Shown piece by piece: positions 3,507-22,235 of a stretch of DNA of 39,087 bases. Where the stretch lies: the IMG/VR virus record IMGVR_UViG_3300020395_000035, positions 1 to 39,087 of that record; one strand, given 5' to 3'. Position numbers and translations under genes: made by a program. The notes under the pieces are model-generated. The model was not told the origin of the DNA. It saw only the letters and a program-made list of their open reading frames with translations, and ran no database searches. The DNA comes from a virus. How positions within the stretch are numbered: position 1 is the first letter of the stretch; the number at the start of each line of letters is the position of its first letter.

Positions 3507-3639
3507 ACAATCTATCATGGGTGGTAATTACGTAGAGTCTATACCGAAAAAATCTCGGCAAGGACTCGGTAAACACTCTAAGTACAGCGCAACCTCTCGA
3601 AATAAGGCACGGAAAAGATACCGAGGTCAAGGAAGATAA
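3493..3639 (+). CDS. Small basic protein (48 aa)
   Basis: ATG 3493 is preceded by GGAGG (3482-3486), a strong Shine-Dalgarno. The protein begins MAKVKQSIMGGNYVESIPKK and ends in an extremely basic tail SRNKARKRYRGQGR. It probably binds nucleic acid or ribosomal RNA, inferred only from charge. Small proteins with this ending are, from memory, conserved among T4-like cyanophages next to structural genes. It overlaps both neighbours (14 nt upstream, TAATG downstream). Confidence 0.7.
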   Translation: MAKVKQSIMGGNYVESIPKKSRQGLGKHSKYSATSRNKARKRYRGQGR

Positions 3640-3998
3640 TGGCAATCGATGATGATGTTAAAATCACTATCAATCTGAATAAATTAGTGGATATAAGAGC
3701 TAGACTCTTAACCCAGCGGGAGGATTATTCAGAGAAGATAGTAAAAGGTGAGTATCTTGATGAAAACGATATAGACCGCATTGCGACTAAATTGAGAGAT
3801 ACTTTAACATGGGATGCACTATTCTTTATGATTGATGATTCAATTTTAGAATACTTAGACATCAAAGAAACTCATTATGGTGAAACCGCAGGTAATGAAC
3901 CTGCAGCCACCTATGAGAAGAATAGGAACCAATTTACTATAGTTGATTTAGTAACCCCTTCATGGACCATACAAGTACCGATTAGGAAGAAGAAATGA
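3639..3998 (+). CDS. Hypothetical protein (119 aa)
   Basis: The start overlaps the previous stop in TAATG. The protein starts MAIDDDVKITINLNKLVDIR. It has a helical charged segment with EDYSEKIVKGEYLDENDIDR and a hydrophobic acidic stretch ALFFMIDDSILEYLDI, and ends in a basic PIRKKK tail. No membrane segment or catalytic motif is recognised. It overlaps the SET-domain gene by 4 nt (ATGA), so the two are made together. A chaperone, adaptor or regulator role is possible but unsupported. Confidence 0.65.
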   Translation: MAIDDDVKITINLNKLVDIRARLLTQREDYSEKIVKGEYLDENDIDRIATKLRDTLTWDALFFMIDDSILEYLDIKETHYGETAGNEPAATYEKNRNQFTIVDLVTPSWTIQVPIRKKK

Positions 3999-4294
3999 CC
4001 TACCAGGCATTACCATCATTTTTACATATTAAAGATAGCCCTGTCGCAGGACAGGGTATTTTTGCGACTGAAAATATACCCTGTGACGTTAAATTGGGTG
4101 TATCTCACGTTGTAGTGGATAATGAAATTATGAGAACCCCTTTAGGTGGATTCGTAAATCATAGTGATGACCCTAATTGTATTAAATGGTTTGAAAAGCA
4201 AGAATGGGGTGATATATACTATATGAGGACTATTAAACCCATTAAAAAGGGTGAAGAATTGTTTTTAAAATATACTTTTTATCAAGTTGTATAA
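3995..4294 (+). CDS. SET-domain protein, candidate lysine methyltransferase (99 aa)
   Basis: SET enzymes transfer a methyl group from S-adenosylmethionine to protein lysines. The sequence shows SPVAGQGIFATENIPC at about 14-29 (the N-terminal SET strand, GxGxFA type), GGFVNHSDDPNCIKWF at about 51-66 (NHS...PNC, the pseudoknot that binds cofactor and substrate) and GEELFLKYTFY at about 86-96 (GEEL...Y, contributing the catalytic tyrosine). At 99 aa it is a minimal SET domain without pre- or post-SET, close in size to viral SET enzymes such as chlorovirus vSET. It ends the operon begun at 2578. Its stop lies inside the late promoter for gp25. The substrate is unknown; ribosomal or histone-like proteins are possible targets. 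Confidence 0.85.
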   Translation: MTYQALPSFLHIKDSPVAGQGIFATENIPCDVKLGVSHVVVDNEIMRTPLGGFVNHSDDPNCIKWFEKQEWGDIYYMRTIKPIKKGEELFLKYTFYQVV

Positions 4295-4297
4295 ATA
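4290..4297 (+). promoter_or_regulatory. T4-type late promoter TATAAATA
   Basis: This is an exact match to the T4 late -10 consensus TATAAATA, which is read by RNA polymerase carrying the phage late sigma factor gp55. It overlaps the SET gene stop (4292-4294) and lies 24 nt upstream of the gp25 ATG. TTGAGGAAAAC (4300-4310) in the leader may supply a ribosome binding site. Confidence 0.85.
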
Positions 4298-4321
4298 TAT
4301 TGAGGAAAACTGTATCGATAG

Positions 4322-4732
4322 ATGCCACTCGTTAAACAACAAAAATCTCGTGCATTTAAGGACATCTCTTTAAGTTTTAGGAGACATCCTGTAACTAATG
4401 ATATACTTGCACTTCGTAATGAGGATGCAATAAAGAGATCTGTTCGAAATCTCGTTGAAACGATTAATGAAGAGCGGTTTTTTAATCCCTTGATAGGGTC
4501 TCAGGTTAAATCTAGTCTTTTTGAAAACGTTGATAATAGTCTTGTAACGACTATTAGAACACAAATTGAAACTTCTATCACTAACTTTGAGCCTAGAGTG
4601 AAATTAACTAATGTTTTAGTTGATCATCCTCTTGATACTAATGAACTGGAAGTAACAATTGCTTACGATATCATTGGCCAAGAGTCTTCACCTCAAGAAA
4701 TTTCATTTATCCTTCAACCAACTAGAGAATAA
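4322..4732 (+). CDS. 25: Baseplate wedge subunit gp25
   Basis: This is a gp25/lysozyme-like baseplate protein (GPW_gp25 family) that joins gp6 and gp53 in the inner wedge and nucleates the sheath. The 136 aa compare with 132 in T4. It starts MPLVKQQKSRAFKDISLSFR. The family features seen are HPVTNDILALRNEDAIKRSV (around 22-41), ERFFNPLIGSQVKSSLFEN (around 52-70) and a final strand region LEVTIAYDIIGQ. It is transcribed from the late promoter at 4290-4297. Its stop overlaps the gp6 start in TAATG, as expected for partners made in fixed ratio. Confidence 0.9.
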   Translation: MPLVKQQKSRAFKDISLSFRRHPVTNDILALRNEDAIKRSVRNLVETINEERFFNPLIGSQVKSSLFENVDNSLVTTIRTQIETSITNFEPRVKLTNVLVDHPLDTNELEVTIAYDIIGQESSPQEISFILQPTRE

Positions 4733-6690
4733 TGGCGTTAACACAATATACTAACCTAGATTTTGAAGAAGTTAAAGTTTCTTTACGTGAATATTTGCGA
4801 GCCAACTCAAATTTCACTGATTTTGACTTTGAAGGATCGAATTTATCGATATTAATTGATCTTTTAGCGTATAATACCTATACTACAGCATATAATACTA
4901 ACATGGTCGCCAATGAGGCGTTCATTGATAGTGCAACTTTAAGGGAAAATGTAGTTGCATTAGCAAGAAATATTGGTTATGTACCCTCTTCAAGACGTGC
5001 TGCAACTGCAAATATCACTTTTACTGTAGATTTGGGTCAAGGAAGTGATGTATCTAGTGTAACACTTAAGGCAGGACTGTTTGGCTTGGGTGATTTTGGT
5101 AATACTAACTATACTTTCTGTACTTCGGAGGATTATATATCACCTGTAACTGATGATTTTGCATCATTTACCATTCCAATTAAACAAGGAACCTATTTAC
5201 AGAAACAATTTGTTGTTGATACATCACAACCAAATCAAAGATTTATCATTCCTAACCCATATGTTGATACATCTACTATAAGAGTTGATGTAAGAGATAG
5301 TGTATCATCAGGAACTAGGAAAACATATGCTCAACTTGACAATATTGTAGGAATTACTACTTCTTCAGAGACATATTTAATACAAGAAGTACAAGATGAG
5401 AAATATGAACTCCTTTTTGGTGATGGAGTGTTAGGTAAAAAGTTAGAAAATGGTAATTCAATAGATGTTTCTTATCTTGTATGTGATGGTAAGGGTGGAA
5501 ATGGTGTGGCCAACTTCACTTTTGCTGGAAAATTGGTTGATAATGATGGTGCAATAATTACTAGTGGTGTTTCTGACATAATTACCAATGAAAATGCTAG
5601 AAATGGTGCAGAAGTTGAAAATATAGACACAATTCGTAATTTAGCACCAAGAGTTTACTCTGCACAACATCGTGCAGTAACATCTAATGATTATGAATCA
5701 ATAATTCCGACAATTTTTCCAAATGCAGAGAGTGTAACTGCTTATGGAGGTGAAGATATTAGTCCACCTCAATATGGAAAGGTATTTTTGTCAATAAAAC
5801 CCAAAAATGGACGATTTATTTCTGATTTTGATAAAAGACAACTAATTAATAAGTTAAAAAGGTATTCTGTAGCTGGAATTCGTCAAGAATTTGTAGATTT
5901 GAAGTTTTTATACATTGAATTGGATACAACAGTCTATTATAACGCAAATTCCGTACTTGATGTGAATAATTTGAAAACAAATATTAGAAATTCACTTGAA
6001 ATTTACTCAAAATCTGCAGATTTGAATAAATTTGGTGGAAGATTCAAATATAGTAAAATTTTGAAGATTATTGATGAAAGTAGTGCTGCTGTTACTTCAA
6101 ATATCACAAAAGTGATTATAAGACGTAATTTAGACGCTGATATTGCTAATTTTGCACAATATGAACTTTGTTTTGGTAATAGATTCCATAATCGCAGAGA
6201 AGGTTACAACATTAAATCTACTGGATTTAATGTAAATGGAGTTAGTGGTACTTGTTACTTCAGTGATACATATATTAATGAAAAAACTGGTAGATTATTC
6301 GTTTTCAGATTAACTACTGAAGGTAAGGTTGAAACTGTAATTGCTAATGCAGGAACAGTTAAATATGACATTGGTGAAATTCTTATAGATACAATACGAA
6401 TTATTTCCACTGATAAACCTGATAATGTGATTGAAATACAAGCTATTCCCGAATCTAATGATATTATTGGATTAAAGGATCTATATGTTCAACTTTCTAT
6501 CCCTGATAGTGATATTGGTTGTATTGAGGATATTATTTCATCTGGTGCAGATACCTCTGGTTCTAGATTTATTTCCACATCTAGTTTTACAGATGATGCC
6601 TACATAAGGAAGACGGCTTCCGCTCCTACTTCTGATAGATATACTTCTACATCGAATATATCTTCTACATCAACAGAAATTAGCTACTAA
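4732..6690 (+). CDS. 6: Baseplate wedge subunit gp6
   Basis: gp6 forms the continuous ring of the inner baseplate and contacts gp25, gp53 and gp7. The length (652 aa) matches T4 gp6 (660 aa). The N-terminal part reads LDFEEVKVSLREYLRANSNF and then FEGSNLSILIDLLAYNTYTT, the usual gp6 start in T4-like phages. The middle has a baseplate J-like core (YELLFGDGVLGKKL near 226, then RNLAPRVYSAQHRAVTSNDY near 305). The C-terminal end is Ser/Thr-rich and looks disordered (TSTSNISSTSTEIS). It is the second gene of the late operon, coupled to gp25. The next gene starts 11 nt after its stop. Confidence 0.9.
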   Translation: MALTQYTNLDFEEVKVSLREYLRANSNFTDFDFEGSNLSILIDLLAYNTYTTAYNTNMVANEAFIDSATLRENVVALARNIGYVPSSRRAATANITFTVDLGQGSDVSSVTLKAGLFGLGDFGNTNYTFCTSEDYISPVTDDFASFTIPIKQGTYLQKQFVVDTSQPNQRFIIPNPYVDTSTIRVDVRDSVSSGTRKTYAQLDNIVGITTSSETYLIQEVQDEKYELLFGDGVLGKKLENGNSIDVSYLVCDGKGGNGVANFTFAGKLVDNDGAIITSGVSDIITNENARNGAEVENIDTIRNLAPRVYSAQHRAVTSNDYESIIPTIFPNAESVTAYGGEDISPPQYGKVFLSIKPKNGRFISDFDKRQLINKLKRYSVAGIRQEFVDLKFLYIELDTTVYYNANSVLDVNNLKTNIRNSLEIYSKSADLNKFGGRFKYSKILKIIDESSAAVTSNITKVIIRRNLDADIANFAQYELCFGNRFHNRREGYNIKSTGFNVNGVSGTCYFSDTYINEKTGRLFVFRLTTEGKVETVIANAGTVKYDIGEILIDTIRIISTDKPDNVIEIQAIPESNDIIGLKDLYVQLSIPDSDIGCIEDIISSGADTSGSRFISTSSFTDDAYIRKTASAPTSDRYTSTSNISSTSTEISY

Positions 6691-6701
6691 AATTAGTAAT
6701 A

Positions 6702-9700
6702 ATGGGTATCGATACTACCGCCAAAAAAGTCCAAATTAATAAACTCGTAAGAAGTCAATTACCTTCTTTTGTAGCTGAGGATAATCCACAATTTGTGGAC
6801 TTTTTAAAACAATACTATGTTTCACAAGAATATCAAGGTGGACCAATTGATATTGCTACTAATTTTAATGAGTATCAAAAAGTAGATACATTTAATGAAG
6901 GTAGTGAACTTGTTGGATTTACTACTTGTACTAATGATATAAATTCTTACGATTCTACTATAGTCGTATCGTCAACAGAAGGTTGGCCTGCAGATTATGG
7001 ACTTTTGAAGATAGATGATGAAATAATTACATATACTAGTAAGACAGAGACCTCATTTGTGGGTTGTGTACGTGGTTTTTGTGGTGTAGATAATTTACAT
7101 GAACCAACAAATACGGAAAATTTAGTATTTTCTGAGTCAAATGCTGTAAAACATGAAGGTCTTTCAAAAGTTACTAATTTAAGTAACTTATTTTTACAAG
7201 AATTTTGGAAAAAGACAAAAAATTTATTTTTGCCAGGATTTGAAGACAGAGAATTACATAAAAAAGTCGATAAAGCTAACTTTTTGCGACAAGCAAAGGA
7301 TTTTTACGGATCAAAAGGTACTGATGAAGCAATAAAAATCTTATTTGGGGTTCTTTTTAACGATCAAGCCGAAGTAATAAAACCAATTGATTACTTATTT
7401 GCACCTTCAGATGCAGATTATGTCAAAACTTTCGATTTGGTAGCTGAAGTTATAAGTGGAAATCCTGATAATGTGGTGGGCCAAACATTATTCCAGACAG
7501 ATAAAACGGCAACTAGTGGATCAATATTTAATGTTCAATTTCTTCCTAAAGATGATAAGAATTATTATCTTATAAGTTTAAGTAGAGGATCAGTTGTTGG
7601 TGAATTTGAAGCTACAGGTGCCTCTAAACTCGTTGATAATGTTGCATATAATAGTAATACTGGTGTTGGTGCTACAGTTCTTACTGTAGATTCTACACTT
7701 GGATTCCCAGATAAGGGAACTGTTTATGTTGGAGCTGGTCTTACTGTAGGTATTGCAACTTATAGTAGTAAAACATCTACACAATTTTATGGCGTAACTG
7801 GCATATCTTCTTCATACACAGATGGTGATTTTGTTAGATCATCTAGAACAGTATATGCATATGAAGACGGAAATATTGAAAAACCAGTTTACTTTAGATT
7901 AACTAATGTGGTTACTGGTGCAAATATCGATGATATTGCACATACACATACAGAAGATATTGTATATCCTAGACAATTAGGATTGGTATCTGATCCAAAT
8001 ATCCATCAATTGAATAGTTGGATTCATAATGTTAAAATTAAGACTGATGTAGCTACATATCTTCAAGGAACAACTACATTGTCTAATGTGGATGATAGTA
8101 CATATAGTGGTGAAGTAAATACGAGTACACCACATGAGTTGCAAATAGGGGATGATGTAATAATATATGATATTCTTAGAAGTGCTGTAGGTACTCCATC
8201 TAACGTAACTGGTAAAGTTGATAGTATTCCAAGTGAAACTAAATTTACAATTACAAATAAAACAGGTACATTAGATCAAACAAAAACTTATCAAGTTGGA
8301 AGAAAGTTGAGATATGCTAGTAGTCTTAATGATAGATTAAATGTATCTAATTTTGTTGCTAATGTACAAAATACATATATTAGTGATGATAATAAAACTG
8401 CATATGTAACAACTGGTTCTTTGCCAGGTTATGAAATAAGTGCTGATCATCGATCACAAACATTTAATGGGTTTAGTGCAGTATCTAATGATACAATTAA
8501 TATACCAAATCATGATTTTAAAACTGGAGAATTAATACGATATAATCCATCAGAAGGTGATGTTGCTGTATCTGGACTCAGTACAGGATTTGCTTATGCA
8601 ATAATAAAAGAAGATGTCAATAATATTAAGTTATCAAGGAGTGTTCTTGATGCAGCTGCAAAAAAACATATTAATATTAATTCTACAGCAAGTTCTACTA
8701 CACATACAATAGTACCTGAAGAACTTAGTGGTAAGAATTTAAAACATCAGAATTTTATAAGAGAATTTCCAATTACTCCAGAAGTAAAAGTAGATACACG
8801 GGATATTAAAAATGAACCAATTGGAATGCTTGTTAATGGAGTAGAAATATTTTCTAATCAATCTGGTGATAATGTATTTTACGGGCCAATTGAACATATA
8901 GACGTTGAAAGAGGTGGTGATGATTATGATGTAATACAACCACCTAATATACACATTTCGGATAATGTAGGTACTGGTGCAACTGCTTATGCTGTTATTG
9001 AAGGTTCATTTAGAGGTATAGAAGTTATATCTGGTGGTTATGATATAAAAAATGTACCAAATATTTCTATAACTGGTGGTAATGGAAATGGAGCTACTGC
9101 ATATCCAAGATTAAAAGCTATTAGGAATGCTAGAACTTTTGACGCTAAGGTTGATGTAACTGTTAATACACAAGCTACTGCATCAGTTAGTATTTCTGGT
9201 GGAGTAATTCAAAATAGTGTTAATATAGTAAATGCTGGAACTGGATATATTACTGCACCAACAGTTACGGTTAGTACAACAAATCCACATACAGGTGCTG
9301 ATGCACAATTAACTGCAACCATCAATGCAAATGGTCAGGTAAGTGGTATTACGGTTGTTTCAGGCGGTTCTGGGTACGTCTCAGGACAGGTTACGTTGAC
9401 ACTTAGTGGTCCTGCTGGATTGATTACTTTTGCAGATGATCACTTATTCTTTGATGGTGAGGAAGTTGTATATGAAAAATCTAAGGATAATGCACAAATT
9501 CCTGGCTTGATTGATAAATCTGTTTATTATGTTCATAACATATCTGGCAATTCTAAACAAATTGCATTAATGAATACTTTTGAAAATGCAGTTTCTGGAA
9601 CTAATGCAGTTACAATTACAAATAAATCCATTGGAACACATAAAATACAATCGACTACATTTAGAAACGTTATTGATAAAATTGTAGTTGAAAATTCTGG

Positions 9701-12700
9701 ATTTGGATATTCTAATAGAAAAGTATTAATTAATTCTGATGCCCATCCTGCAGTAGATTATGCTAATAGGGCTAATATAAGATCTGGTGTAAGTATTGCA
9801 AATAATTATATTTTCCATAAAAATCATGGATTTAGAAATGGTGATCTTGTTGAATATAGTCATACGGGTACTGCAATAAGTGGATTATCTACTACAATAA
9901 AATATTTGATAATTAAATTGGATGAAGATAGATTCCGTCTTTGTAGTGCAGGTGATGATTATATTAATAATTTGTATTCGGAGGAGTTTGGAACTACATC
10001 AACTACAGTAAATTATAGTAAGGGTTTATATGTTGATATAAATTCCGTTGGTGCAGGTACTCATACATTTAAATATCCAGATATATCTGTTTCTATGGAT
10101 GTTATTTCTGGAGTTGGTAATACTGCCGTTTCATTCCCAGTAATAAGACCTATATGTAGAGGTGGTATAACAGATATTCATTTAACTAATACTGGAGTTG
10201 GATATGGGTCTTCAGATACTATTAATGCACATAGAAGACCATTAGTAACTATATCTAATGGTCTTGGTGGTTTAGTTGATGTTTCTATAACAGATGGTTT
10301 AATTAGTGATGCATTTACAAAAATTGATGGTAAAGGTTATGTTTCTCCTCCAGATTTAATTGTTGAAGGTCAGGGTAAATATGGAAAACTTGTATCTAAT
10401 GTGAATGCAGATGGTACTCTTGGTGCAGTTAATATTATTGATTCTGGTAAGGATTATACAACAATTCCAGATACAACAGTACGAGTTAAATCTCCTGGCG
10501 TTGGAGCTGTATTCAGAGCGGATTTGAGAAAGTGGAATATGACCACAATTGCTAGATATCAAGAATCAATCAATCCTTCTGATGATGGTATAATTTTACC
10601 AAGTCAAAATCCTGAATATGAATCAAAATTTACATCTGCTTATCTTCCTAGAAGATTGAGATTATTACTTGATGATAGTATTGAAACTAATTTTGATGAA
10701 AAAAATGTAGTAGAACATTCTCCTATTGTTGGATGGGCATATGATGGTTGTCCGATTTATGGACCATATGGATTTAATTCTCCTACTGGAGGTGCAGTTC
10801 GTAGATTAACATCTGGATATACTGCTGTAACTAGATCTAATAGACCTACAGAATTTCCAGCAGAATCTTTTGTTGAAGATTTTGATTATACTGGAAATGG
10901 AGATTTGGATGAAAATAATGGTAGATTTGGTAAAACGCCAGAATATCCTAATGGTGTATATGCATATTTCTGTACTATTTCAGATACCGATGGAAGTATA
11001 TCTCCATTTAATGGTACTAGAAAACCAGTATTTCCGTTTATATTGAATGGGTATCAATTTAATAGAGTTGATTCAAATGTTCAGGCTTTATCGTTACAAT
11101 CTACTTCAAAACTTAATAGTGGAAATATAATAAGAAATACTTTACCATATCGACTTGGATTTATTGGTTCTAATTATGATTATTTGGTTTCTAGTAATAT
11201 AGATGATACTGAATTTACTATTAGAAATACTAATATGACTGGTATTACTTCAATATCAGTTCATGAGCCAGGTGTTGATTATAAAGTGGGAGATAGATTA
11301 AAATTTGATAATAATAATACTGGTGGAGGTCATGGTGTTTCTGCAAAAGTAAAAACCATTTCTGGAAAAGGTATTGTAGATATAACTTATGCAAAGACTA
11401 CTGTTGAACATATTGAGTTTAATTATAAAAATGGATTAGGAGTAGGTATAGGTTCAACTGCACATGGATTACATGATGGCGATCTTGTTAATGTATCTGG
11501 TATAGGAACTGGTGAACTTAGATTTCTTGAAGGTCATAAAACTATTGGTGTATCATCAGTTACCTCTAAATTAAGTGTTGGAATATCTTCTATAGCTGGT
11601 CATGCCGATTCTACAGGCCGTACTGCTTTTATGTACCTTACCCAACAGACTTCATCACGTAATAGTAATGAAGATGATATACAAGTTGGAGATTGGTTAA
11701 TTATTGGTGATGCTGATGATTCTATAAAAGAAAAAGTTCAAGTAATAGAATATAATCAAAAATTTGATAGATATAAAATTAGAAGACAAACTGGTATTGG
11801 AAATACATGGTTTGAGGCAGGAACATCTGTTGTTGTTGATCAAAAGAAATTTACATTTAATGCTGGAATTGCAACTGATTTACGAATAGGTGATAATTAT
11901 ACAATAACAATTAATCCACAAAGTAGTATTGGTATTGGAACTGTAATAAAAACAGAAACTGGTCCTTATGGTAATGTTTCTGTTGCTAGAGTAGTTGCTA
12001 AGGATAATACTGTTTTATATGATAGGGATCCGCAAAATAGACCACATAATACTCAGCCAGGATCCAATTGTGATAATTCAATTACTTTTGAGAATCATGG
12101 ATTTATTACTGGTCAAAAATTACAATATTTTAAGAGTCCAACTGCAACTGCTGGATTGCAAGTATCTCAAAATGTTGGGATGGGTGCATCATTTAGTCTT
12201 ACTGATGGTCAATTTGTATATGCAGTTAAGAAAACTGATGATTTGTTTGGTATTCAAACAAGTAGAGTTGGTATAGGGTCTACATCAAAATCACTATATT
12301 TTGCAACTATAGGTGCAACTGGTGGAAATGTTACCGTTTATGATGATCATCAATTAAAAACTACTAATGAATCACATGTAGGATTTGTGGATAAATTTGA
12401 TGTAACTGTTGTCACATCACAACCTCATGGATTAAAAAATAATGATGAAGTAACTATTAGTATTTCTCCAGATCAAACTATTAATAAAAGTGTTGAATAT
12501 GATACTGTTGCCAGGAAAACTATAGTTGAACCTTTATATTTCCAAAGTTCCGATGTGTCAACTTCAAATAATACAATAAAAATAACAAATCATGGATATA
12601 AAGATGGTGATAAAGTTCTGTATAAGGCTGGTGCTACTGCAATAACACCTTTAGAGGATAGGGATGAATATTATGTTCAGAGGATATCTGATGATTATTT

Positions 12701-15700
12701 TAAATTATTCACTAATCGTAAAGATTCTATTAGTGATCCAAATGGATTTATTAATCTAACTAATATTGGATCTAGTGCAGGTGCAGGTAATCATCATAGA
12801 ATTTCTAGAATTAATCCTCCAATTAAGGCTTTATTAGGAGAAACTGTGGGATTTGCAGTTTCTGATTCATCTAATAGTAATTTTACATTAGAATTTTTTA
12901 GAGATAAGAATTTTACTAATAGATTTGATGGTGTTGGAATATCCACTGAAGTTGTAAGGAGTGGTGTACCTGGCACAACTGGTAGTTTAGTTAGTCTTAA
13001 ACTTACTAATAATGTACCTTTACCATTGTGGTATAAATTAACACCAAGTATAAAAAATAATGCTGGTGATTACATTGATGTTACAAAGAGGGATAGTTAT
13101 CCTGACACACAAGTTATTAATGGATCGAGAATATCATTAGAACTTAGTCGATATTCTGGTAATTTTGGAATTAAAACTACTGGTATGGGTAATACAGCTT
13201 TTAGTTATCAGATTGCAGAAAAACCAGAAAAAGAAAGATATAATACTGCTGGTGTAAGTACTTTTAGATATCTAACAAAATCAACTAACGCAAAAGGTGG
13301 AATTAATGAAATTAAAATTGATTTTCCTGGCAGAGAATATGTTAGAAATCCTGGCATAACCAGTATAAGATCAACTAATGGTAAAGATGCGGATGTTCGT
13401 ATTCTTGATGATAATGTTGGATTCCCAGCTTTCACTGAAGTTACTAAAATTGGATATGATTATCCGACAGATAAAACATTAAGTCCTAGAGCAGATACTT
13501 ATGCAAATGTGAGTGTAGTTAATAATTATGTAATTGGTCATATTGGTATAGTTACTGCAGGTAAAAATTATAGTACTGCACCTGATTTATTTTTACCAGA
13601 TAGGCCATTTGCAAAAACAAGAGTTTATTTAGAGGGTACATCAATCGGATCTGTTGAAATCTTAGAAGATAGTTTAACTGGATTTAGTAATGTTCCAAAT
13701 CCACCAAGAATTATTGCAATTAACAATACAAATGGTGTTGGTGTTGTAACTGCTAGGTGTATTGAAGCTAATGGAGATCCTAATACATCACCCTTAATTG
13801 AAATAAAGAAACCTTTTGGTGGTTGGAGAGCTGAAAATCATAGATTGGGTACTAATTTCCCATTTGAAGTTGGAGATCAAGTTTTTGTTGAAAACGTTGA
13901 AGTATTTCAAAATGATAATCCAATATTTTACAATGAAGGAAGAGTGATTGGTTATAATTCTGATATGTATGATTATCAGTATTTTACTATTACTGAGAGA
14001 AATATTGCTAATTCTTGGATAAAATATTCTATTGCAGGTATTGGTACTTGGGGTGGAACTTTTGATCCAGTCAATAGTGCTGGTAGAGTTATTAAGAAAG
14101 AAGATTTACCATCATTTAACGTTAGATTTGATCATAGAGATTTTATTGAAGGAGAACATGTTACATTTGGTGGCGGATCAGCTGAAGGTGTAATTGTAAT
14201 GAATGAAGGTTGGGATAGAGCTACAAATTCATTTAGATTAAGAGGATTGACAAGAAATCCGTTTAAAGGTGATGTTATTGTCGGTGGAATATCTAATGCT
14301 CAAGGTAAAGTTATTAAATCGTCTTATTATGAGAGATATTTTACAATATCACATCAATCAGATAGAGTTAAAGGATTCCAAAAAAATACTGGTAAATTAA
14401 ATAACGATTTCCAAAAAATACAGGATAGTGATTATTATCAAAATTTCTCATATTCAATTCAAAGTGAAGTTCAGGAAAAAGATTTCAGTGATGCTGTAGA
14501 TAGTATTGTTCATCCTACTGGATATAAGAATTTCTCAGATTTAGTTATAAAGTCACTTCCAACATCTGGTAGTGGTAGGAGTACTGATTTATCTCCAAGG
14601 CCTCCACAAAGTGATACTGGATTACAAGTAAGTATTGATAATATACAATCATTCTATGTTAAGAATGACTATGATTTTGCTACAGAAACAACTATTGCTA
14701 GTGGATATTCTAAGTTTATTACATTCCAAAATAAGAAACTCACTGATCTTTTAAGTATTAGTTCTGCTAAAGTTAATTTAATTGATGATCTATCTAATCA
14801 ATTTGATGGAAAAACTGAAACATTCTCTGGTATTCATAAGTTTGTTAGAGATGAAATTAGAACAGCAGGTGCTGGAAGTACAGGCGCTATTAATATAATA
14901 ACAGGAGCTCCTGTTGGAAGTAATGGAACTATTATTGTTACTAATGGTACAACTTATGAACCTACTACTGGTGTATTAACGATTAAAGCTGATGCTCATG
15001 GACTTTCTAATGGCGCTACTGTTAGTATACTTGATAATTCTTTAACATTCACATGTGATAAAGATAATCATACTACAGAACATAGATATCCAAGAACATC
15101 AGATCCTGCTTCAACTTCAAATAGTAAATTTAATTGGGGTGTATTAACAGTCGCTAATAAGACTACGAATACATTTGAATTAACTATTAATACACCAGTT
15201 ATTGGTGGTAAAGTTGTCGGATTGAGTACTTTTGTACTCACTACAGAAAATGGTGGTAATAATGTATTTCATAATATAATAGATCCTAGTAATACCGATA
15301 CTATAGCGATAGGAAAATCAGTATTTACTGCAATCAATCATGGATTACAAACTGGGGAAGCTATAACATATGTGCCTGGTTCTAATACAAGTATTGGTAT
15401 TAATCCAACTGCATTCCGTGTGGCTACTACTGATATAACAATCGGTACAGAACAGATTGAAATTATTGGTCATGGTTTAAGTACCGCAGATACATTAACA
15501 TATACTGCAGGTTCTACTGCAATTGGTGGTCTTACCAATTCTACAACTTATTCTGTTATTAGAGTTAATAATAATACAATTAAACTTGCAACAAATACTT
15601 CCAATGCAAATGGTGGTACTGCAATTAATTTAACATCTGTGGGTGCTGGTATTCATGTATTCACTACTGCATCTAATCCTACGATGCCTACTAGTGCATA

Positions 15701-18700
15701 TGTATTTAAAACTTCTGATAATTCATTTAAGGTAATTCGTGATCCTCTTACTCCAGTAGATTATGCCTATACTTTACGTAATGTAGGAACTGGAACATAT
15801 CATGCATTTAATCCTACATCTCCAGAAAGTAGAACGTTAATTGAAATTGATGGTGTTATTCAATCTCCACTTTATAAGAAAGCTATTAGTGTTGCATTTG
15901 CTAGTAATGTTAGTAATTCAGCAACTTCCGTTACACTTGCTGGTATTACATCTATAAGAGCTAATGATATTATTAGTGTAGGTAATGAATTGATGAGGAT
16001 TAAAGGAATTGGTATTGGAGGAGCTAATGTATGTACTGTAGAACGTGGATTCTTAGGTACATCTGCAGCTGCACATACTACTAGTTCAACATGTACAATA
16101 AAAGATGGTGATTTTAATATTGTTAATGGTATACTTCATCTTACAACTCCTCCATATGGCCCATCAGGATCTGCAGGTATTAGTACATCATCAACATTCC
16201 ATGGCAGAATATTCAATAGGAAAGATGTAACTAGAAACTTTATTTTTGATGATGTATCACATAAATTTACTGGAAATGTTGCGACTGGAAGAACATTCAC
16301 ATTAACTCAAAATGATGAAGATGTAACTGGTATTGTTACTACAGTATCTGGTACTGGTGGTGCTGGTCAGGTTATTAATAATGGTATTATCTTGATTAAT
16401 AACATATTCCAAAGACCAGATATTGATTATGTAATGACACCAAGATCTTATGATCCTAATGTTGGTATTGGTGGATCAATTTCATTTACTGGAATCACTA
16501 CAAATTATACTATCCCTAGAGGTGGTAAAGTAGAAGATTTTGATGTTAATTTTGGTAAGGGATATCAACCAAGGAGAGCTGCTGCCGCTACTGCAGTTAT
16601 TAATGCTGCAGGTTCAATACAAAGTTTAACTATGACTGGTGCTGGTCGTGGATATTTCTCAGGATCAGTTAATGTTGAGGTATTTAATCCATTAGGTGTT
16701 GGTTCGGCTGCTGTTCTACAGGCAACAGTTGGTACTGGAAATAGTGCTGGAATGATTACTGGTATTACTACTATAAGTGGTGGTACTGGATATTCATCAT
16801 CAGATCCTGCATATAATACACATGTTCCTGTAGTTTCTACTGATGGAACAACATTAACAATTAATGTTGGGACTGCACTTCCTAAAGGAAGATATCAACA
16901 TAGTTTTGTACGTGATAGTGGTACTCATACGTTTGTGAGTGGAGTTACAAATGCTATTACTGCAAGTAATGGTGCAAGTGGAAACTTTACTGCTGCATCT
17001 GGTACAACTTATAATCCTTTAACTGGAAATTTAGTATTAACTATTGGGTCACATAGTTTAACAACAAGTAATAAAGTTACACTTGCAGATGGTGCAGTTA
17101 CATTTACATGTGATGCTGACAATCATGCAACTAATCATTCATATCCTAGATCAAGTGATCCTGCATCAGGACAAGCACTTACTATTACTGCTAAGACTGG
17201 TACAACAATTACAGTTAATGTTGGTGCAGTTAAAGGTGCTAATTCAGTAGTTACTGATACAACAGCTGTTGCTGGTTCTGGTTCTACTGCTGCATTTACT
17301 CCTAGTACTGCAGTATATGATCCAAACTCTGGAGATTTGGTACTTACTAAGGCATCTGGTACTTGGACTCATGCAACTAATGCAGGAACTCTTACACCAA
17401 TAAGTGGTACTGCATACAATCCATCAACAGGTATCTTAACTGTTAAGGCTACAGGTCATGGATTGGTTAATAATGATTTAATTAATATTCTTGAAGGTGG
17501 AATACCATTAACATGTGCAAAAGATAGTAATGCAACTACACATTATTATCCAAGAAAGACAGATCCTATTTTTGGAAAATGGATAAAGATTACTAAGGTT
17601 GATAATGATACATTCACAGTTTGGGTTGGTGGTTCTACTTATACAGGTGCTCATACATTTGTAACAGGACAAAGTGCTAATAAGATTAGAAAAGCTACGT
17701 CATATGTAAGACTTAATGATAATTCCTTCGTATTTACATGTACTAAGGATGGTAATTCAACTCAACATTCATATCCACGTACAGGAATTACAGTACCACC
17801 AATAATTAAAGTTGGTATTGCAACAGGATATAGTGACTTGGTATTTACTGGTGGTACTGGTCAAGGATTTAAAGCTAGTGTTGTAGTTGGTTCTGGTGGA
17901 ACTGTTATTGATTATGATATAACTGATAGAGGTTATGGTTATAAGAATGGTGAAGTATTGACTGTACAAGGTATACCATTTGAGCCAGGTATTTCAACAA
18001 GTTCACTTACATTTACAATAAACAAAACAATTACTGATAAATTTGCTGGATTTAGTTTTGGTCAATTAGTAACTCTTGATAATTTTGCTGATCAATTCGA
18101 TAATGATACCAAATCATTCTTACTCACCAAACTAAATGTTAATACTGGTGTTAAGGATATTGTTACTATAGTTTCATTAGATACATCTATTGATGCTGAT
18201 AATAACTTATTAATATTCTTGAATGATGTGTTACAAAAGCCAGGAGAAAACTATAGTCTTGAAGGTGGTACAACATTAAACTTTGTTGAAGCTCCTAAAG
18301 AAGGAAGTAAGTTACAAGTTTTATTCTATAGAGGTGGTAATGCTGATATTGAAGCATTAAACCCCGTAAAAACCTTTAAAGTTGGCGATAAAGTTCAATT
18401 ACTTCGAGGTGGTGATAGGCCTAGACAATCTGATCGTGTTGTATCTGATATTTCAGATGTAAGTAAGATAGAAACACCACTTTATGGTGGTGGTGGAATT
18501 AGTACTAATAGTAGTTTGGTTAGAGTAGCTGCTTGGAAGAAACAAGAAAGTGATCTTGTTGTTGATGGACTTCCTATTTCCAAAGAAAGATCTAATTATA
18601 CTGGTAAATTTAGACCAGTTTCAAATATTATTCAAAATGTTGCAACGAATAGTGGAACAATATATCTTGATAGTGGATGGCCTATATTCAGTGCATATGA

Positions 18701-20603
18701 TAATAGAACTAATAATGATAAAGTTCCAGGCTTAGTTGAATTGATGAATGTAAATGATGTTACTACTGCTCGTGGTACTGTTGGTGTTTCTTCTGGAGGA
18801 GTTGTTAATTCTATTACAGTAACTGATTTTGGATCTGGATATGGTTCTGCACCTACAATATCCATATCTTCTAAGGTTACACAAACTCCAGAGATTGGTG
18901 CTAGTTGGACTAAGAGTACTCCATTAACAGATGTTAATTTCAAAGGGGTTGATTATACTCCAGAAGGTATATTTGTTGCTGTTGGAAGTACTTCTGGTAT
19001 TCATACATCAACTGATGGAAAGACTTGGACTTCTTCTGCTAGTGTAACAGCATCTACATGGAATGGAGTTGTCGGTATGTCTACTGCAATTGTTGTTGTG
19101 GGTGCAGCTGGTACTATTGGTATTAGTACTAATGCAGCATCTTCCTTTACTGCAACTAGAATTTATAGAAAGACACAAACTGGATTTATTCCATCTTATA
19201 CTGATGAGAATATATCTCAAAGTTTGCGAGCTGCAGCTATAGGAGTGGTTCCAATATCAACTATTGTTGGAAATCAACTTGTAACTGAAAATAAAGAAAG
19301 AGCTGTTGTTGTTGGTGCTGCTGGTACAATTCTTTACAGTGAGCCAGGTCAATCTGGTATTGCAACTTCATTTGTTGTTGCTAACAAATATGCAAACCAA
19401 CAATTTAATGGTATTGCATATCGTTCTCCTTATGTTAAAGAAAGTGGAGATGCTGTGGGTCCAGCATTCATTGCAGTAGGTAATAATGGTGCAATATACA
19501 AATCCACTAACGGTGAGGTTTGGTCTGGTATTACTACAACTACTATTACTACTAATATTAATGCAATTGAATATGCTGATGATCAATGGATAGCTGTTGG
19601 AGCTGGTGGAAAAGTGTTTAGATCTACTAAAGAACAAGATGGTTCTGCTTGGCAAGTAGTTGGATCTGGTACGACATTTGCATTATGGTCACTTAGTTAT
19701 CAGGATAATGTATGGTATGCAGGTGGTGGAAATGGAATGGGATTAAATTCTGTTAATGGGTTTGAATGGTATAAGAAACATATGATTTCTAGTGATGAAA
19801 CTCCAGTTGGTGTTGTGATAAATGGTCTTGCATATGGGGATAATAAATTAGTTGCTGTTGGTGTGAGTTCAAATATACATTACAGTCAATTTGAAGTTAC
19901 TAAAGCGACTGCTACCACAACAGTGAGTGCTGCTGGTACTGTTACAGGAGCAACTATTACAAATGCTGGATTTGGTTATGATTCAACTAATCCACCTAAT
20001 ATATTATTCTCCACACAAACAGTTACTCGTGAGAGAATAACTAATTGTGAAATTAAAGGTGATTATGGAACAGTCGTTTCTGTTGCTAAACAAACATCAG
20101 GAGTTAATAGTCGTCCAACATTAATTCTTGGGTTGGATGCATCTCCATTTATAAATCAAACCGCTTTTGGTAATAAGAGTGCATCTCAATTAGTAGTTGG
20201 TGATTATTTTGTACTTAAAGGTACTAGATTTGGACCTTCTGGAGGATTAACTGCTACTGATGGAAGTGGAAATACAATTGGTGTTGGTGATGCTTATGCA
20301 GATGGTATATATAAAGTTGAAGCCGTTAGTTCTTCTGGGGGAGTATTAACAGTATCTACTAATGTTAGTTCTGTTGCAAATGTAACAGCAGTATCTGGTG
20401 GAAATGTTGGTATTGCTCGTAGTATGTCAACTAATTTAGGTGAATATAGTTGGAGTAAATTGTATAATTTTACAAGATCATCAACTCCTTCAGCATTTAC
20501 TGTTAATACAAATAATGGATATTCTGGTATATCCACTGGTCCTACAGTTTCAAGAGTTTCACCTATAGCTCTCGAATATTCTGATCTTAGTTCTAATAGT
20601 TAA
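6702..20603 (+). CDS. Giant baseplate/tail structural protein at the gp7 position (4633 aa)
   Basis: This sits between gp6 and gp8, where T4 has gp7 (1032 aa), but is about 4.5 times longer. The N-terminal part (1-280) carries likely wedge-binding sequence, for example DNPQFVDFLKQYYVSQEYQG and a helical EFWKKTKNLFLPGFEDRELH segment. Residues about 600-3000 contain many copies of an NHGF..G..V.Y module and GGxGY...P.V.IS beta repeats. A YHYH-like region lies near 1338-1430 (GWAYDGCPIYGPYGF from 1344). Residues about 2780-3700 hold four copies of an FTC..D...T.H.YPR motif. Residues about 4066-4398 form a beta-propeller-like region with Asp boxes (STDGKTW 4103, STNGEVW 4268, SVNGFEW 4350). There is no signal peptide, membrane segment or long coiled coil, so it is not a tape measure. 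It may reach outward and bind host glycans. The gp7 equivalence is inferred from position and the N-terminus. Confidence 0.8.
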   Translation: MGIDTTAKKVQINKLVRSQLPSFVAEDNPQFVDFLKQYYVSQEYQGGPIDIATNFNEYQKVDTFNEGSELVGFTTCTNDINSYDSTIVVSSTEGWPADYGLLKIDDEIITYTSKTETSFVGCVRGFCGVDNLHEPTNTENLVFSESNAVKHEGLSKVTNLSNLFLQEFWKKTKNLFLPGFEDRELHKKVDKANFLRQAKDFYGSKGTDEAIKILFGVLFNDQAEVIKPIDYLFAPSDADYVKTFDLVAEVISGNPDNVVGQTLFQTDKTATSGSIFNVQFLPKDDKNYYLISLSRGSVVGEFEATGASKLVDNVAYNSNTGVGATVLTVDSTLGFPDKGTVYVGAGLTVGIATYSSKTSTQFYGVTGISSSYTDGDFVRSSRTVYAYEDGNIEKPVYFRLTNVVTGANIDDIAHTHTEDIVYPRQLGLVSDPNIHQLNSWIHNVKIKTDVATYLQGTTTLSNVDDSTYSGEVNTSTPHELQIGDDVIIYDILRSAVGTPSNVTGKVDSIPSETKFTITNKTGTLDQTKTYQVGRKLRYASSLNDRLNVSNFVANVQNTYISDDNKTAYVTTGSLPGYEISADHRSQTFNGFSAVSNDTINIPNHDFKTGELIRYNPSEGDVAVSGLSTGFAYAIIKEDVNNIKLSRSVLDAAAKKHININSTASSTTHTIVPEELSGKNLKHQNFIREFPITPEVKVDTRDIKNEPIGMLVNGVEIFSNQSGDNVFYGPIEHIDVERGGDDYDVIQPPNIHISDNVGTGATAYAVIEGSFRGIEVISGGYDIKNVPNISITGGNGNGATAYPRLKAIRNARTFDAKVDVTVNTQATASVSISGGVIQNSVNIVNAGTGYITAPTVTVSTTNPHTGADAQLTATINANGQVSGITVVSGGSGYVSGQVTLTLSGPAGLITFADDHLFFDGEEVVYEKSKDNAQIPGLIDKSVYYVHNISGNSKQIALMNTFENAVSGTNAVTITNKSIGTHKIQSTTFRNVIDKIVVENSGFGYSNRKVLINSDAHPAVDYANRANIRSGVSIANNYIFHKNHGFRNGDLVEYSHTGTAISGLSTTIKYLIIKLDEDRFRLCSAGDDYINNLYSEEFGTTSTTVNYSKGLYVDINSVGAGTHTFKYPDISVSMDVISGVGNTAVSFPVIRPICRGGITDIHLTNTGVGYGSSDTINAHRRPLVTISNGLGGLVDVSITDGLISDAFTKIDGKGYVSPPDLIVEGQGKYGKLVSNVNADGTLGAVNIIDSGKDYTTIPDTTVRVKSPGVGAVFRADLRKWNMTTIARYQESINPSDDGIILPSQNPEYESKFTSAYLPRRLRLLLDDSIETNFDEKNVVEHSPIVGWAYDGCPIYGPYGFNSPTGGAVRRLTSGYTAVTRSNRPTEFPAESFVEDFDYTGNGDLDENNGRFGKTPEYPNGVYAYFCTISDTDGSISPFNGTRKPVFPFILNGYQFNRVDSNVQALSLQSTSKLNSGNIIRNTLPYRLGFIGSNYDYLVSSNIDDTEFTIRNTNMTGITSISVHEPGVDYKVGDRLKFDNNNTGGGHGVSAKVKTISGKGIVDITYAKTTVEHIEFNYKNGLGVGIGSTAHGLHDGDLVNVSGIGTGELRFLEGHKTIGVSSVTSKLSVGISSIAGHADSTGRTAFMYLTQQTSSRNSNEDDIQVGDWLIIGDADDSIKEKVQVIEYNQKFDRYKIRRQTGIGNTWFEAGTSVVVDQKKFTFNAGIATDLRIGDNYTITINPQSSIGIGTVIKTETGPYGNVSVARVVAKDNTVLYDRDPQNRPHNTQPGSNCDNSITFENHGFITGQKLQYFKSPTATAGLQVSQNVGMGASFSLTDGQFVYAVKKTDDLFGIQTSRVGIGSTSKSLYFATIGATGGNVTVYDDHQLKTTNESHVGFVDKFDVTVVTSQPHGLKNNDEVTISISPDQTINKSVEYDTVARKTIVEPLYFQSSDVSTSNNTIKITNHGYKDGDKVLYKAGATAITPLEDRDEYYVQRISDDYFKLFTNRKDSISDPNGFINLTNIGSSAGAGNHHRISRINPPIKALLGETVGFAVSDSSNSNFTLEFFRDKNFTNRFDGVGISTEVVRSGVPGTTGSLVSLKLTNNVPLPLWYKLTPSIKNNAGDYIDVTKRDSYPDTQVINGSRISLELSRYSGNFGIKTTGMGNTAFSYQIAEKPEKERYNTAGVSTFRYLTKSTNAKGGINEIKIDFPGREYVRNPGITSIRSTNGKDADVRILDDNVGFPAFTEVTKIGYDYPTDKTLSPRADTYANVSVVNNYVIGHIGIVTAGKNYSTAPDLFLPDRPFAKTRVYLEGTSIGSVEILEDSLTGFSNVPNPPRIIAINNTNGVGVVTARCIEANGDPNTSPLIEIKKPFGGWRAENHRLGTNFPFEVGDQVFVENVEVFQNDNPIFYNEGRVIGYNSDMYDYQYFTITERNIANSWIKYSIAGIGTWGGTFDPVNSAGRVIKKEDLPSFNVRFDHRDFIEGEHVTFGGGSAEGVIVMNEGWDRATNSFRLRGLTRNPFKGDVIVGGISNAQGKVIKSSYYERYFTISHQSDRVKGFQKNTGKLNNDFQKIQDSDYYQNFSYSIQSEVQEKDFSDAVDSIVHPTGYKNFSDLVIKSLPTSGSGRSTDLSPRPPQSDTGLQVSIDNIQSFYVKNDYDFATETTIASGYSKFITFQNKKLTDLLSISSAKVNLIDDLSNQFDGKTETFSGIHKFVRDEIRTAGAGSTGAINIITGAPVGSNGTIIVTNGTTYEPTTGVLTIKADAHGLSNGATVSILDNSLTFTCDKDNHTTEHRYPRTSDPASTSNSKFNWGVLTVANKTTNTFELTINTPVIGGKVVGLSTFVLTTENGGNNVFHNIIDPSNTDTIAIGKSVFTAINHGLQTGEAITYVPGSNTSIGINPTAFRVATTDITIGTEQIEIIGHGLSTADTLTYTAGSTAIGGLTNSTTYSVIRVNNNTIKLATNTSNANGGTAINLTSVGAGIHVFTTASNPTMPTSAYVFKTSDNSFKVIRDPLTPVDYAYTLRNVGTGTYHAFNPTSPESRTLIEIDGVIQSPLYKKAISVAFASNVSNSATSVTLAGITSIRANDIISVGNELMRIKGIGIGGANVCTVERGFLGTSAAAHTTSSTCTIKDGDFNIVNGILHLTTPPYGPSGSAGISTSSTFHGRIFNRKDVTRNFIFDDVSHKFTGNVATGRTFTLTQNDEDVTGIVTTVSGTGGAGQVINNGIILINNIFQRPDIDYVMTPRSYDPNVGIGGSISFTGITTNYTIPRGGKVEDFDVNFGKGYQPRRAAAATAVINAAGSIQSLTMTGAGRGYFSGSVNVEVFNPLGVGSAAVLQATVGTGNSAGMITGITTISGGTGYSSSDPAYNTHVPVVSTDGTTLTINVGTALPKGRYQHSFVRDSGTHTFVSGVTNAITASNGASGNFTAASGTTYNPLTGNLVLTIGSHSLTTSNKVTLADGAVTFTCDADNHATNHSYPRSSDPASGQALTITAKTGTTITVNVGAVKGANSVVTDTTAVAGSGSTAAFTPSTAVYDPNSGDLVLTKASGTWTHATNAGTLTPISGTAYNPSTGILTVKATGHGLVNNDLINILEGGIPLTCAKDSNATTHYYPRKTDPIFGKWIKITKVDNDTFTVWVGGSTYTGAHTFVTGQSANKIRKATSYVRLNDNSFVFTCTKDGNSTQHSYPRTGITVPPIIKVGIATGYSDLVFTGGTGQGFKASVVVGSGGTVIDYDITDRGYGYKNGEVLTVQGIPFEPGISTSSLTFTINKTITDKFAGFSFGQLVTLDNFADQFDNDTKSFLLTKLNVNTGVKDIVTIVSLDTSIDADNNLLIFLNDVLQKPGENYSLEGGTTLNFVEAPKEGSKLQVLFYRGGNADIEALNPVKTFKVGDKVQLLRGGDRPRQSDRVVSDISDVSKIETPLYGGGGISTNSSLVRVAAWKKQESDLVVDGLPISKERSNYTGKFRPVSNIIQNVATNSGTIYLDSGWPIFSAYDNRTNNDKVPGLVELMNVNDVTTARGTVGVSSGGVVNSITVTDFGSGYGSAPTISISSKVTQTPEIGASWTKSTPLTDVNFKGVDYTPEGIFVAVGSTSGIHTSTDGKTWTSSASVTASTWNGVVGMSTAIVVVGAAGTIGISTNAASSFTATRIYRKTQTGFIPSYTDENISQSLRAAAIGVVPISTIVGNQLVTENKERAVVVGAAGTILYSEPGQSGIATSFVVANKYANQQFNGIAYRSPYVKESGDAVGPAFIAVGNNGAIYKSTNGEVWSGITTTTITTNINAIEYADDQWIAVGAGGKVFRSTKEQDGSAWQVVGSGTTFALWSLSYQDNVWYAGGGNGMGLNSVNGFEWYKKHMISSDETPVGVVINGLAYGDNKLVAVGVSSNIHYSQFEVTKATATTTVSAAGTVTGATITNAGFGYDSTNPPNILFSTQTVTRERITNCEIKGDYGTVVSVAKQTSGVNSRPTLILGLDASPFINQTAFGNKSASQLVVGDYFVLKGTRFGPSGGLTATDGSGNTIGVGDAYADGIYKVEAVSSSGGVLTVSTNVSSVANVTAVSGGNVGIARSMSTNLGEYSWSKLYNFTRSSTPSAFTVNTNNGYSGISTGPTVSRVSPIALEYSDLSSNS
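15042..17787 (+). repeat. Four copies of an FTC..D...T.H.YPR motif in the giant protein
   Basis: The copies encode LTFTCDKDNHTTEHRYPR (from 15042), VTFTCDADNHATNHSYPR (from about 17099), IPLTCAKDSNATTHYYPR (from about 17503) and FVFTCTKDGNSTQHSYPR (from about 17728). Cys, Asp, Thr, His and YPR are constant. Each is usually preceded by a Y.P.TG.L.L or related strand and followed by DP. Confidence 0.85.
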
Positions 20604-20622
20604 ACTAATCAGTAATTAAACA

Positions 20623-20630
20623 CATAAATA
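20623..20630 (+). promoter_or_regulatory. Late promoter variant CATAAATA
   Basis: This matches the T4 late -10 at seven of eight positions. It lies in the 47-nt gap between the giant gene and gp8, 20 nt before the gp8 ATG. It would give gp8 and downstream genes a fresh late start after a 13.9-kb gene. Confidence 0.7.
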
Positions 20631-20650
20631 AACAAAAATAGTCTAGTAAG

Positions 20651-22231
20651 ATGCCTGCGATTATTTCAGATCAATTTAGAATATTAAATGCTGCGAATTT
20701 TGTCGCTGGTATATCTGGTGGCACTGATAATTATTATACATTTCTTGGTTTTTCTAATTATCAAGATGTTGAACAAGGATATGGAACTTTAGATTGGAAT
20801 ACTAATACTCCTGCACCTAAAGATGGATTTAAAGAATCCAATGATGTGTGGGATACCATGCTTGGTATGAAGAAGATGGCTTCTGATGATATACAGAGGA
20901 TGGTTAAAAAGTATACATGGACTTCAGGAACAGTATATGAAATGTATAAACATTCATATACAAGAGAGAATCAAAGTCCTAAAACTTCTTCAACTAATCT
21001 TTATGATGCACAATATTATGTTGTAAATAGTGATCTTAAAGTTTATATTTGTATTAATAATGGTCAAACTCCAGATAACCCACAAGGTAGACAGTCACTT
21101 GACGAACCAGATTTTGTTGATTTAGAACCAAGAGCTGCTGGTACTAGTGGTGATGGTTATATTTGGAAGTATCTTTATACTATTAAACCAAAAGAGATTA
21201 TAAAATTTGATTCAATTGATTATATGCCTGTTCCTACATCTTGGGGAACTGGTGAAAGTGGTGATATAAAAGATAATGCAATAAGTGGAAAGATTGAAAC
21301 TGCAGTTGTAATTAATGGTGGTGGTGGATATCAACCTATTGGTACTACTTTTAACAATATTCCCATACTTGGAGATGGTACTGGTGGTAGAGCTTCAGTA
21401 ACTGTTAATTCTCAAGGTAAAGTTTCAGATATAACTGTTACTAATGGTGGTACTGGATATAGTAGAGGAGTTGTTGAATTTTATCCTGGCGCTCCAGGCG
21501 CTGAAACTGGTGGGCCAATTACTGGATTATCTGCTGTTGGTGTAGGAACAACTTCTATTGCAGAATTTGAAGTAGTTATTCCACCTCCAGGCGGACATGG
21601 GTATGATATTTATCGTGAACTTGGTGCTTTTAGAGTATTAATGTATGCAAGATTTGAGAATAGTACTACAAATCCTGATTTTATTGTAGGAAATGACTTT
21701 GCTCAAGTTGGTGTTGTTAAAAATCCAACAAATATTGCAGGTTCTTTATTAACTTCAGATTCTGCAGTTCCATTAACTTCACTTAAATTGAAGACAATTA
21801 GTGGAGGAAATATAGCTGATACCATCTATACTGTTGATACTCCAGTTACACAAACTATAGGTGTTGGATCTACGGCTATTGGATATGTTGCTAGTTGGGA
21901 TTCTACTAGTGCAGTATTAAAATTATATACACCTACTGGTATTGGATCAACTACCACTGGATTTAGGATGGTTGATTTTGATGGTACATCAAATCAATTA
22001 ACCATTTCTGGACAAACATCTGGTAATGCTTTATCGATAGATGATGCATTTACTGGTAATTCTGTGACTATAAATGGAGCTAGTGTTTCATTAGGTCAAG
22101 CCTTTACTAAAGGTGTTGCACCACCAGAAGTTAAAAAATATTCTGGTGAAGTCTTATACATAGATAACAGGGCCGCAATACAACGTAGTGCTACCCAGAA
22201 AGAAGATGTAAAAATCGTATTAGAGTTCTAA
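20651..22231 (+). CDS. 8: Baseplate wedge subunit gp8
   Basis: gp8 is a dimeric baseplate wedge protein that binds gp7 and gp10 in T4. The protein starts MPAIISDQFRILNAANFVAG, then YYTFLGFSNYQDVEQGYGTL and DDIQRMVKKYTWTSGTVYEM, typical of marine T4-like gp8. It is 526 aa against 334 in T4. Much of the excess is a GGxGY beta-repeat insert at about residues 211-290 (VVINGGGGYQPIGTT, then ITVTNGGTGYSRGVVEFYPG). The C-terminal part includes PPEVKKYSGEVLYIDNRAAI, the conserved gp8 end. It has its own late promoter at 20623. The next gene starts 4 nt after its stop. Confidence 0.85.
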   Translation: MPAIISDQFRILNAANFVAGISGGTDNYYTFLGFSNYQDVEQGYGTLDWNTNTPAPKDGFKESNDVWDTMLGMKKMASDDIQRMVKKYTWTSGTVYEMYKHSYTRENQSPKTSSTNLYDAQYYVVNSDLKVYICINNGQTPDNPQGRQSLDEPDFVDLEPRAAGTSGDGYIWKYLYTIKPKEIIKFDSIDYMPVPTSWGTGESGDIKDNAISGKIETAVVINGGGGYQPIGTTFNNIPILGDGTGGRASVTVNSQGKVSDITVTNGGTGYSRGVVEFYPGAPGAETGGPITGLSAVGVGTTSIAEFEVVIPPPGGHGYDIYRELGAFRVLMYARFENSTTNPDFIVGNDFAQVGVVKNPTNIAGSLLTSDSAVPLTSLKLKTISGGNIADTIYTVDTPVTQTIGVGSTAIGYVASWDSTSAVLKLYTPTGIGSTTTGFRMVDFDGTSNQLTISGQTSGNALSIDDAFTGNSVTINGASVSLGQAFTKGVAPPEVKKYSGEVLYIDNRAAIQRSATQKEDVKIVLEF

Positions 22232-22235
22232 GAAA

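Follow-up and report, generated by a model that had tools for sequence, protein, structure and literature searches.

What is a baseplate wedge protein of 4633 amino acids for? The question is raised by a stretch of viral DNA of 39,087 nucleotides, called the window here, in which one plus-strand open frame runs for 4633 codons (6702-20603) with its sole stop at its 3' end. The calculated product is of 495 kDa, with a pI of 5.6. The original prediction had spoken of a single frame covering over one third of the window, encoding a protein at the gp7 position about 4.5 times the size of T4 gp7. The figures agree: the frame takes up 35.6% of the window, its product is 4.49 times the length of T4 gp7 (1032 aa), and it lies between gp6 and gp8, starting 12 bases past the final base of gp6. 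The gene order is that of a wedge cluster:

4322..4732, plus strand: gp25, baseplate wedge (phrog_261, E=2e-49)
4732..6690, plus strand: gp6, baseplate wedge (phrog_219, PF21379)
6702..20603, plus strand: giant gp7, baseplate wedge protein of 4633 aa (phrog_2885 baseplate wedge subunit, 2808 bits, E=0)
20651..22231, plus strand: gp8, baseplate wedge (phrog_438, PF09215)

Upstream of gp25, a 252-aa protein (2578-3336; phrog_1574) has weak glycosyltransferase matches, and several relatives carry a gene of about that size near gp25.

A frame of this length cannot have arisen by chance at about 32% GC. It might still be an assembly artefact, or its product might be absent from the virion. Contigs of close kin end at 12745-12758 and at 16796, which suggests that the region is difficult to assemble; apart from this, nothing was found in favour of either idea. 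Two contigs from other metagenomes speak to the matter directly: L004 (IMG 3300020345) reproduces window 4889-16796 at 99.97%, and L007 (IMG 3300026134) reproduces 12758-25899 at 99.25%, both without gaps. The pair overlap each other by about 4 kb and together span the whole frame; because they are independent and gapless, the frame is taken to be real, and assembly artefact, named beforehand as something that could undo the prediction, is rejected as its source. Frames of equal length occur in cultured phages. As to the virion, mass spectrometry has found orthologues in purified particles: 71 peptides for S-SZBM1_208, a ‘baseplate wedge initiator’ of 6619 aa (PMC9146016), and 91 unique peptides for S-CREM2 ORF122, 1937 aa, flanked by gp6 and gp8 positions (PMC10665884), both equated with gp7 by name and position, without alignment. 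With all this, artefact or absence from the particle is hardly credible.

The likeness to T4 gp7 lies at the N-terminus. A profile built from 15 N-terminal sequences (A1) finds T4 gp7 residues 727-759 in the PDB (E=3.6e-5) and gp7 of phage KP1 (E=1.7e-4); the remaining row, a DNA methylase at E=0.015, was judged implausible. The DFYxxKGT core also matches phrog_964 (E=0.0037). AlphaFold models were made for residues 1-900 and 3692-4633. The first, with a mean pLDDT of 61 and a pTM of 0.29, deserves modest confidence, and the only Foldseek matches to it below 1e-3 are KP1 gp7 (9f4a) and T4 gp7 (5iv5), with E values of 8.5e-5 and 4e-4. VIA-align places residues 238-405 on T4 gp7 761-843 (5hx2_A; Z 8.9, rmsd 2.8, 82 residues); this fold match is collinear with the sequence match, is local, and comes from a modest-confidence model. 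As a single sequence, the protein scores 20.8 and 25.6 bits (E 3e-4 and 1e-5) with PF23786, Baseplate_wedge, against a cut-off of 27, at the residues that match T4; with the full-length sequence alone as query, the PDB gave no match.

From sequence profiles and a predicted fold, we conclude that the core is orthologous to T4 gp7; the homology is confined to a few hundred N-terminal residues and takes up little of the whole protein. The window protein belongs to a T4-type marine phage near the cyanophage genus Kanaloavirus and is its gp7. T4 gp7 has been said to be absent from cyano- and pelagimyophages, with VrlC in its place (PMC7029224); because of the profile and fold matches, we hold instead that the protein in the gp6-gp8 slot is a gp7. 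The earlier suggestion that both ends look like a wedge protein is right for the N-terminal end, by profile and by fold; for the C-terminal end, the search returned cyanophage gp7 relatives only and no T4 match.

The emphasis on size had implied an exceptional protein, and the relatives do not bear this out, as the same slot holds proteins of 1,016 to 7,124 aa. At the small end are HTVC008M (1016 aa), S-H34 (1942), S-PM2 (3048), S-RIM32 (3411) and S-MbCM7 (3533); in the middle S-CAM9 (3884), S-8S55 (3891), Bellamy (4067), DSL-LC03 (4107), S-SM2 (4156), P-TIM68 (4307) and P-HM1 (4446); and at the large end S-T4 (4749), P-SSM2 (5195), syn9 (6076), S-RIM8 (6395), P-RSM4 (6603) and P-SSM7 (7124). 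The window gp7 is mid-range for Kyanoviridae, where 3,000-7,100 aa are common; it belongs to a known giant family, many members of which are already annotated ‘baseplate wedge initiator’. Kinship within this family (PHROG 2885) holds across most of the length, the window protein being collinear with those of S-CAM9, S-8S55, DSL-LC03 and others. Its closest isolates, at 52-54% over some 830 N-terminal residues, belong to Kanaloavirus: the Synechococcus phages S-CAM9 and S-8S53/55/56.

Two oddities turned up among the sequences compared. The gp7 slot of S-SKS1 (NC_020851 120000-142500, minus strand; L023) is mostly unannotated and holds four overlapping frames of ~710, 1601, 1113 and 739 aa, which reflect sequencing errors or true splits. 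In MAGs assigned to archaea or bacteria, long YHYH frames (for example L110, L112, L114-L119) resemble fragments of cyanophage gp7, and are probably binned virus contigs.

Along its length the protein can be divided as follows:

6702..7421, plus strand: residues 1-240, wedge core with the motif DFYxxKGTxxSxxxLF, like the trifurcation region of T4 gp7 (profile A1, T4 gp7 727-759)
7422..8501, plus strand: residues 241-600, beta domains; residues 238-405 align to T4 gp7 761-843 (VIA-align, Foldseek)
10707..11141, plus strand: residues 1336-1480, YHYH-like domain lacking the YHxH histidine motif (PF14240)
14817..15683, plus strand: residues 2706-2994, variable hinge with one CDxDNHxTxHxYPR module, near the place where the gene is split elsewhere (alignments)
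16800..17789, plus strand: residues ~3367-3696, in-frame insert of ~330 aa with three CxxDxNxTxHxYPR modules (alignments)
17790..18884, plus strand: residues 3697-4061, conserved core of the C-half (alignments)
18885..19913, plus strand: residues 4062-4404, seven-bladed beta-propeller of Ycf48/Asp-box type between conserved segments (model, Foldseek, profile A6)
19914..20603, plus strand: residues 4405-4633, conserved C-terminal segment and stop codon (alignments)

The wedge core is the most conserved part, 66% to S-CAM9 as against 65% for gp6 and 71% for gp8; most other parts change faster (41-57% to S-CAM9). Residues 241-2705 are collinear in all close relatives, at 44-57%, and residues 2995-3366 are conserved. 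No tandem repeats were found in the DNA; modules recur at the protein level only. The description of the body as a mosaic of beta modules with a YHYH-like domain and a propeller has stood up, the YHYH domain by its PF14240 match and the propeller by its model.

The YHYH match is strong (PF14240, E=1.3e-22, residues 1338-1426) and is limited to positions 91-182 of the 193 in the profile, its second half. In jumbo phages, YHYH domains have been proposed, from conserved histidines, to be tail-associated metal-dependent hydrolases (PMC7824862); together with the match, this would allow the body of the window protein to be an envelope-digesting enzyme. The histidines, however, are what the phage domain lacks. 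Of 40 short cellular YHYH proteins, 35 have the YHxH motif a little ahead of the matched part, and none of 77 phage copies has it (61 loci on viral contigs, 16 isolates); the Pfam match itself begins only at position 91. A digestive body is accordingly very improbable, and an active hydrolase in gp7 was rejected. Because the motif is missing, the YHYH domain is better regarded as a binding or structural module; that role would be its contribution to the arm considered below.

The propeller, predicted from the letters alone, is there. The model of residues 3692-4633 has pLDDT values mostly of 80-92 across residues 4062-4404, and shows seven blades. The top match in Foldseek is YCF48 (E=1.5e-10); in VIA-align it is virginiamycin B lyase, together with a designed 7-bladed protein and WD40 propellers (Z 28-30). 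Since the two methods put different propellers at the top, no more than the seven-bladed fold is firm. Fold-list rows naming F1/V-ATPase, ubiquitin-activating-enzyme or norovirus entries were dismissed as common beta arrangements. A profile of ten members (A6) matches only Ycf48/HCF136 chains in the PDB, with a best E of 4e-9. Among curated families, the window copy has no significant PSII_BNR or PRK13684 match, and a Pfam search with it alone gives only DUF6242, below the cut-off; the other members match PF14870 in 3 of 10 cases, PRK13684 in 5 of 10 and a glycosylhydrolase propeller family in 8 of 10. Curated family models do not make it a Ycf48 orthologue, and derivation from the host's Ycf48 has no support beyond the common fold and a remote profile similarity.

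The distribution of the propeller is patchy. Sequence searches place it in nine phage records, of which eight are from Synechococcus phages with a giant gp7, and alignment adds S-SSM7; it is missing at the same spot in Bellamy, S-SM2, P-SSM2 and S-T4. Between near-identical strains its changes are mostly synonymous (dN 0.006, dS 0.037), and so give no sign of positive selection there.

The insert tells a similar story of gain. Three of the CxxDxNxTxHxYPR modules lie in it and a fourth in the hinge. It has no counterpart in S-CAM9, S-8S55, DSL-LC03 or two contigs (L036, L107), where the flanks are continuous. Its kin are found elsewhere: P-RSM4 and syn9, whose gp7 cores share only 26-36% identity with that of the window, have stretches that resemble the insert at 49-59%, and other cyanophages have matching proteins that are annotated as structural or as tail fibres, short or long. 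Such a pattern is what a mobile module leaves. Exchange may be visible on a finer scale too. The window differs from L007 at 98 places in 13.1 kb, and at none within a 3.7-kb tract (14742-18487) that takes in the hinge and the insert along with part of the C-half, while both flanks differ; when the differences were placed at random 20,000 times, a tract of that length never arose. Recent exchange is possible, as is mixing of strains in an assembly.

The hinge is a further point of variation: just 28-29% of residues 2706-2994 have a counterpart in S-CAM9 or L036. Near it, at about window residue 2700, gp7 is divided into two adjacent ORFs in six contigs (L032, L052, L054, L058, L059, L074). The first ORF, 2722-2772 aa, matches window residues 1-2701; the second, ~960-1200 aa, starts directly and matches ~2843-4627; in several cases, stop and start overlap or lie a few bases apart. 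In S-SSM7 (L010:19998-39092), the two gp7 ORFs, 3007 and 3001 aa, are parted by a connector gene of 340 aa. The halves are therefore separable and the hinge is a natural break. One might go further and suppose that the window frame is translated whole and then cut near residue 2700, working as two or more pieces, with the C-half serving as a separate baseplate or fibre protein. Both kinds of two-ORF arrangement are what this would lead one to expect; yet the frame is unbroken in most relatives, no protease site was identified, the published mass spectrometry consulted does not report gp7 in pieces, and phages with split genes may hold the halves together non-covalently. Cleavage is distinctly unlikely.

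The account that fits best overall, and is probably right, is a conserved wedge anchor with a long, modular arm that probably faces the host. Each T4 wedge has a trifurcation unit in which a single gp7 is united with two gp6 chains (PMC6300606, PMC3004832). The first ~240 to 400 residues form the conserved wedge part, which in T4 joins two gp6 in a (gp6)2-gp7 heterotrimer and seats gp8; each wedge would have one copy, as in T4, making six per baseplate. The ~4,200 residues that follow would be a chain of beta modules, gained and exchanged in the course of evolution, reaching out from the wedge as a large arm, and the arm would probably take on part of the work of T4 gp9-gp12: fibre docking and host contact. 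On it, the propeller and the insert with its YPR modules would be exchangeable contact modules and the YHYH domain a binding or structural one. The arm would divide at the hinge near residue 2700, some relatives making the halves as two proteins.

That the body is peripheral, the ‘built-in fibre’ that the original prediction suggested, and faces the host is plausible. Indirect support comes from modules common with tail-fibre proteins, from the clade-specific gain of modules (the insert and the propeller are each absent from named relatives), and from faster change outside the core. Separate tail-fibre genes exist in these phages; therefore, the gp7 arm need not be the receptor binder.

The growth of gp7 might instead be purely architectural: the protein would replace gp9, gp10 and gp11 as the frame on which fibres dock, and its modules would bind virion proteins, not the host. 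Between gp8 and the neck genes, the window has no recognised member of the gp9, gp10, gp11 or gp12 families. Moreover, Hc2-like beta modules are common to neck proteins, gp8 and gp7, so that common modules can be structural. Simple compensation fails as an explanation of size, however: syn9, P-SSM7, P-RSM4, S-RIM8 and P-TIM68 combine a giant gp7 with a gp9/gp10-like connector directly after it. The propeller, confined to a few clades, also fits variable contact better than fixed architecture. The architectural alternative is unlikely, though a serious contender.

Several neighbours deserve mention in their own right. Directly after gp8 comes a second giant of 2478 aa (22236-29672; phrog_358, DUF4815), whose counterparts in position among relatives are annotated VrlC or structural protein. 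A 973-aa protein (30512-33433) has several repeated tail-fibre-family matches, and an L-shaped tail fibre assembly gene (29914-30255) is near it. Beta modules of gp7 and gp8 recur in neck-region proteins of that virion, at 34776-36209 and 33652-34776 (Hc2 and Ad2 families).

To return to the anchored, host-facing arm: a stronger form of it would make the gp7 of Kyanoviridae a host-contact organ, with six arms of ~0.5 MDa springing from the wedge core, exchangeable adhesive domains, and attachment and triggering united in one polypeptide in place of the gp9-gp12 relay of T4. This is put forward tentatively. The choice of adhesive domains that goes with it (the Ycf48-type propeller, the YHYH domain without its histidine motif and the YPR modules) is a tentative suggestion likewise. 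Further indirect support for a peripheral, host-facing body comes from experimental evolution: in chemostats with Synechococcus WH7803, a non-synonymous change appeared early in S-PM2d081, there called hypothetical (PMC9910659). This gene (L191:2531-11677) occupies the gp6-gp8 slot, and its product matches the window protein at E=6e-41, 29% over residues 7-384. That change is one of 33 mutations, and may be neutral or have been there beforehand.

Cyanomyophages are abundant in the sea. If the arm does face the host, the wedge core would link recognition directly to contraction, and the map of anchor, hinge, insert and propeller shows which parts to test. The additions made here are that map, the missing YHYH histidine motif, the two-ORF variants and the connection of S-PM2d081 with gp7. 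A literature search, with preprints outside its scope, found no cryo-EM of the baseplate of a T4-like marine cyanophage, and no paper joining cyanophage, baseplate and beta-propeller.

Among known systems, the gp7 proteins of S-CAM9 and S-8S55 are the nearest: they occupy the same slot, are collinear over nearly the full length at 41-66%, and have the propeller at the same place, but lack the ~330-aa insert and most of the additional sequence in the hinge. S-SZBM1_208 and S-CREM2 ORF122 are alike in name or place and in being virion proteins, and differ in size. The slot protein of the Pelagibacter phage HTVC008M, annotated head closure Hc2, has a homologous N-terminus (24% over residues 11-267) but is T4-sized and without any giant body, so the core can exist alone. 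Ycf48/HCF136 (PDB 5OJR, 2XBG), the sole PDB sequences matched by the phage profile, share the seven-bladed Asp-box propeller; they are only 15% identical, and act in photosystem II assembly, whereas the phage propeller is a domain within a baseplate protein. T4 gp7 itself (PDB 5IV5, 5HX2) shares the slot, the DFYxxKGT core and the beta domain that follows, by profile and by fold. Its core, however, lies near residue 730 of 1032, whereas that of the window protein lies at about residue 200 and is followed by some 4,200 more.
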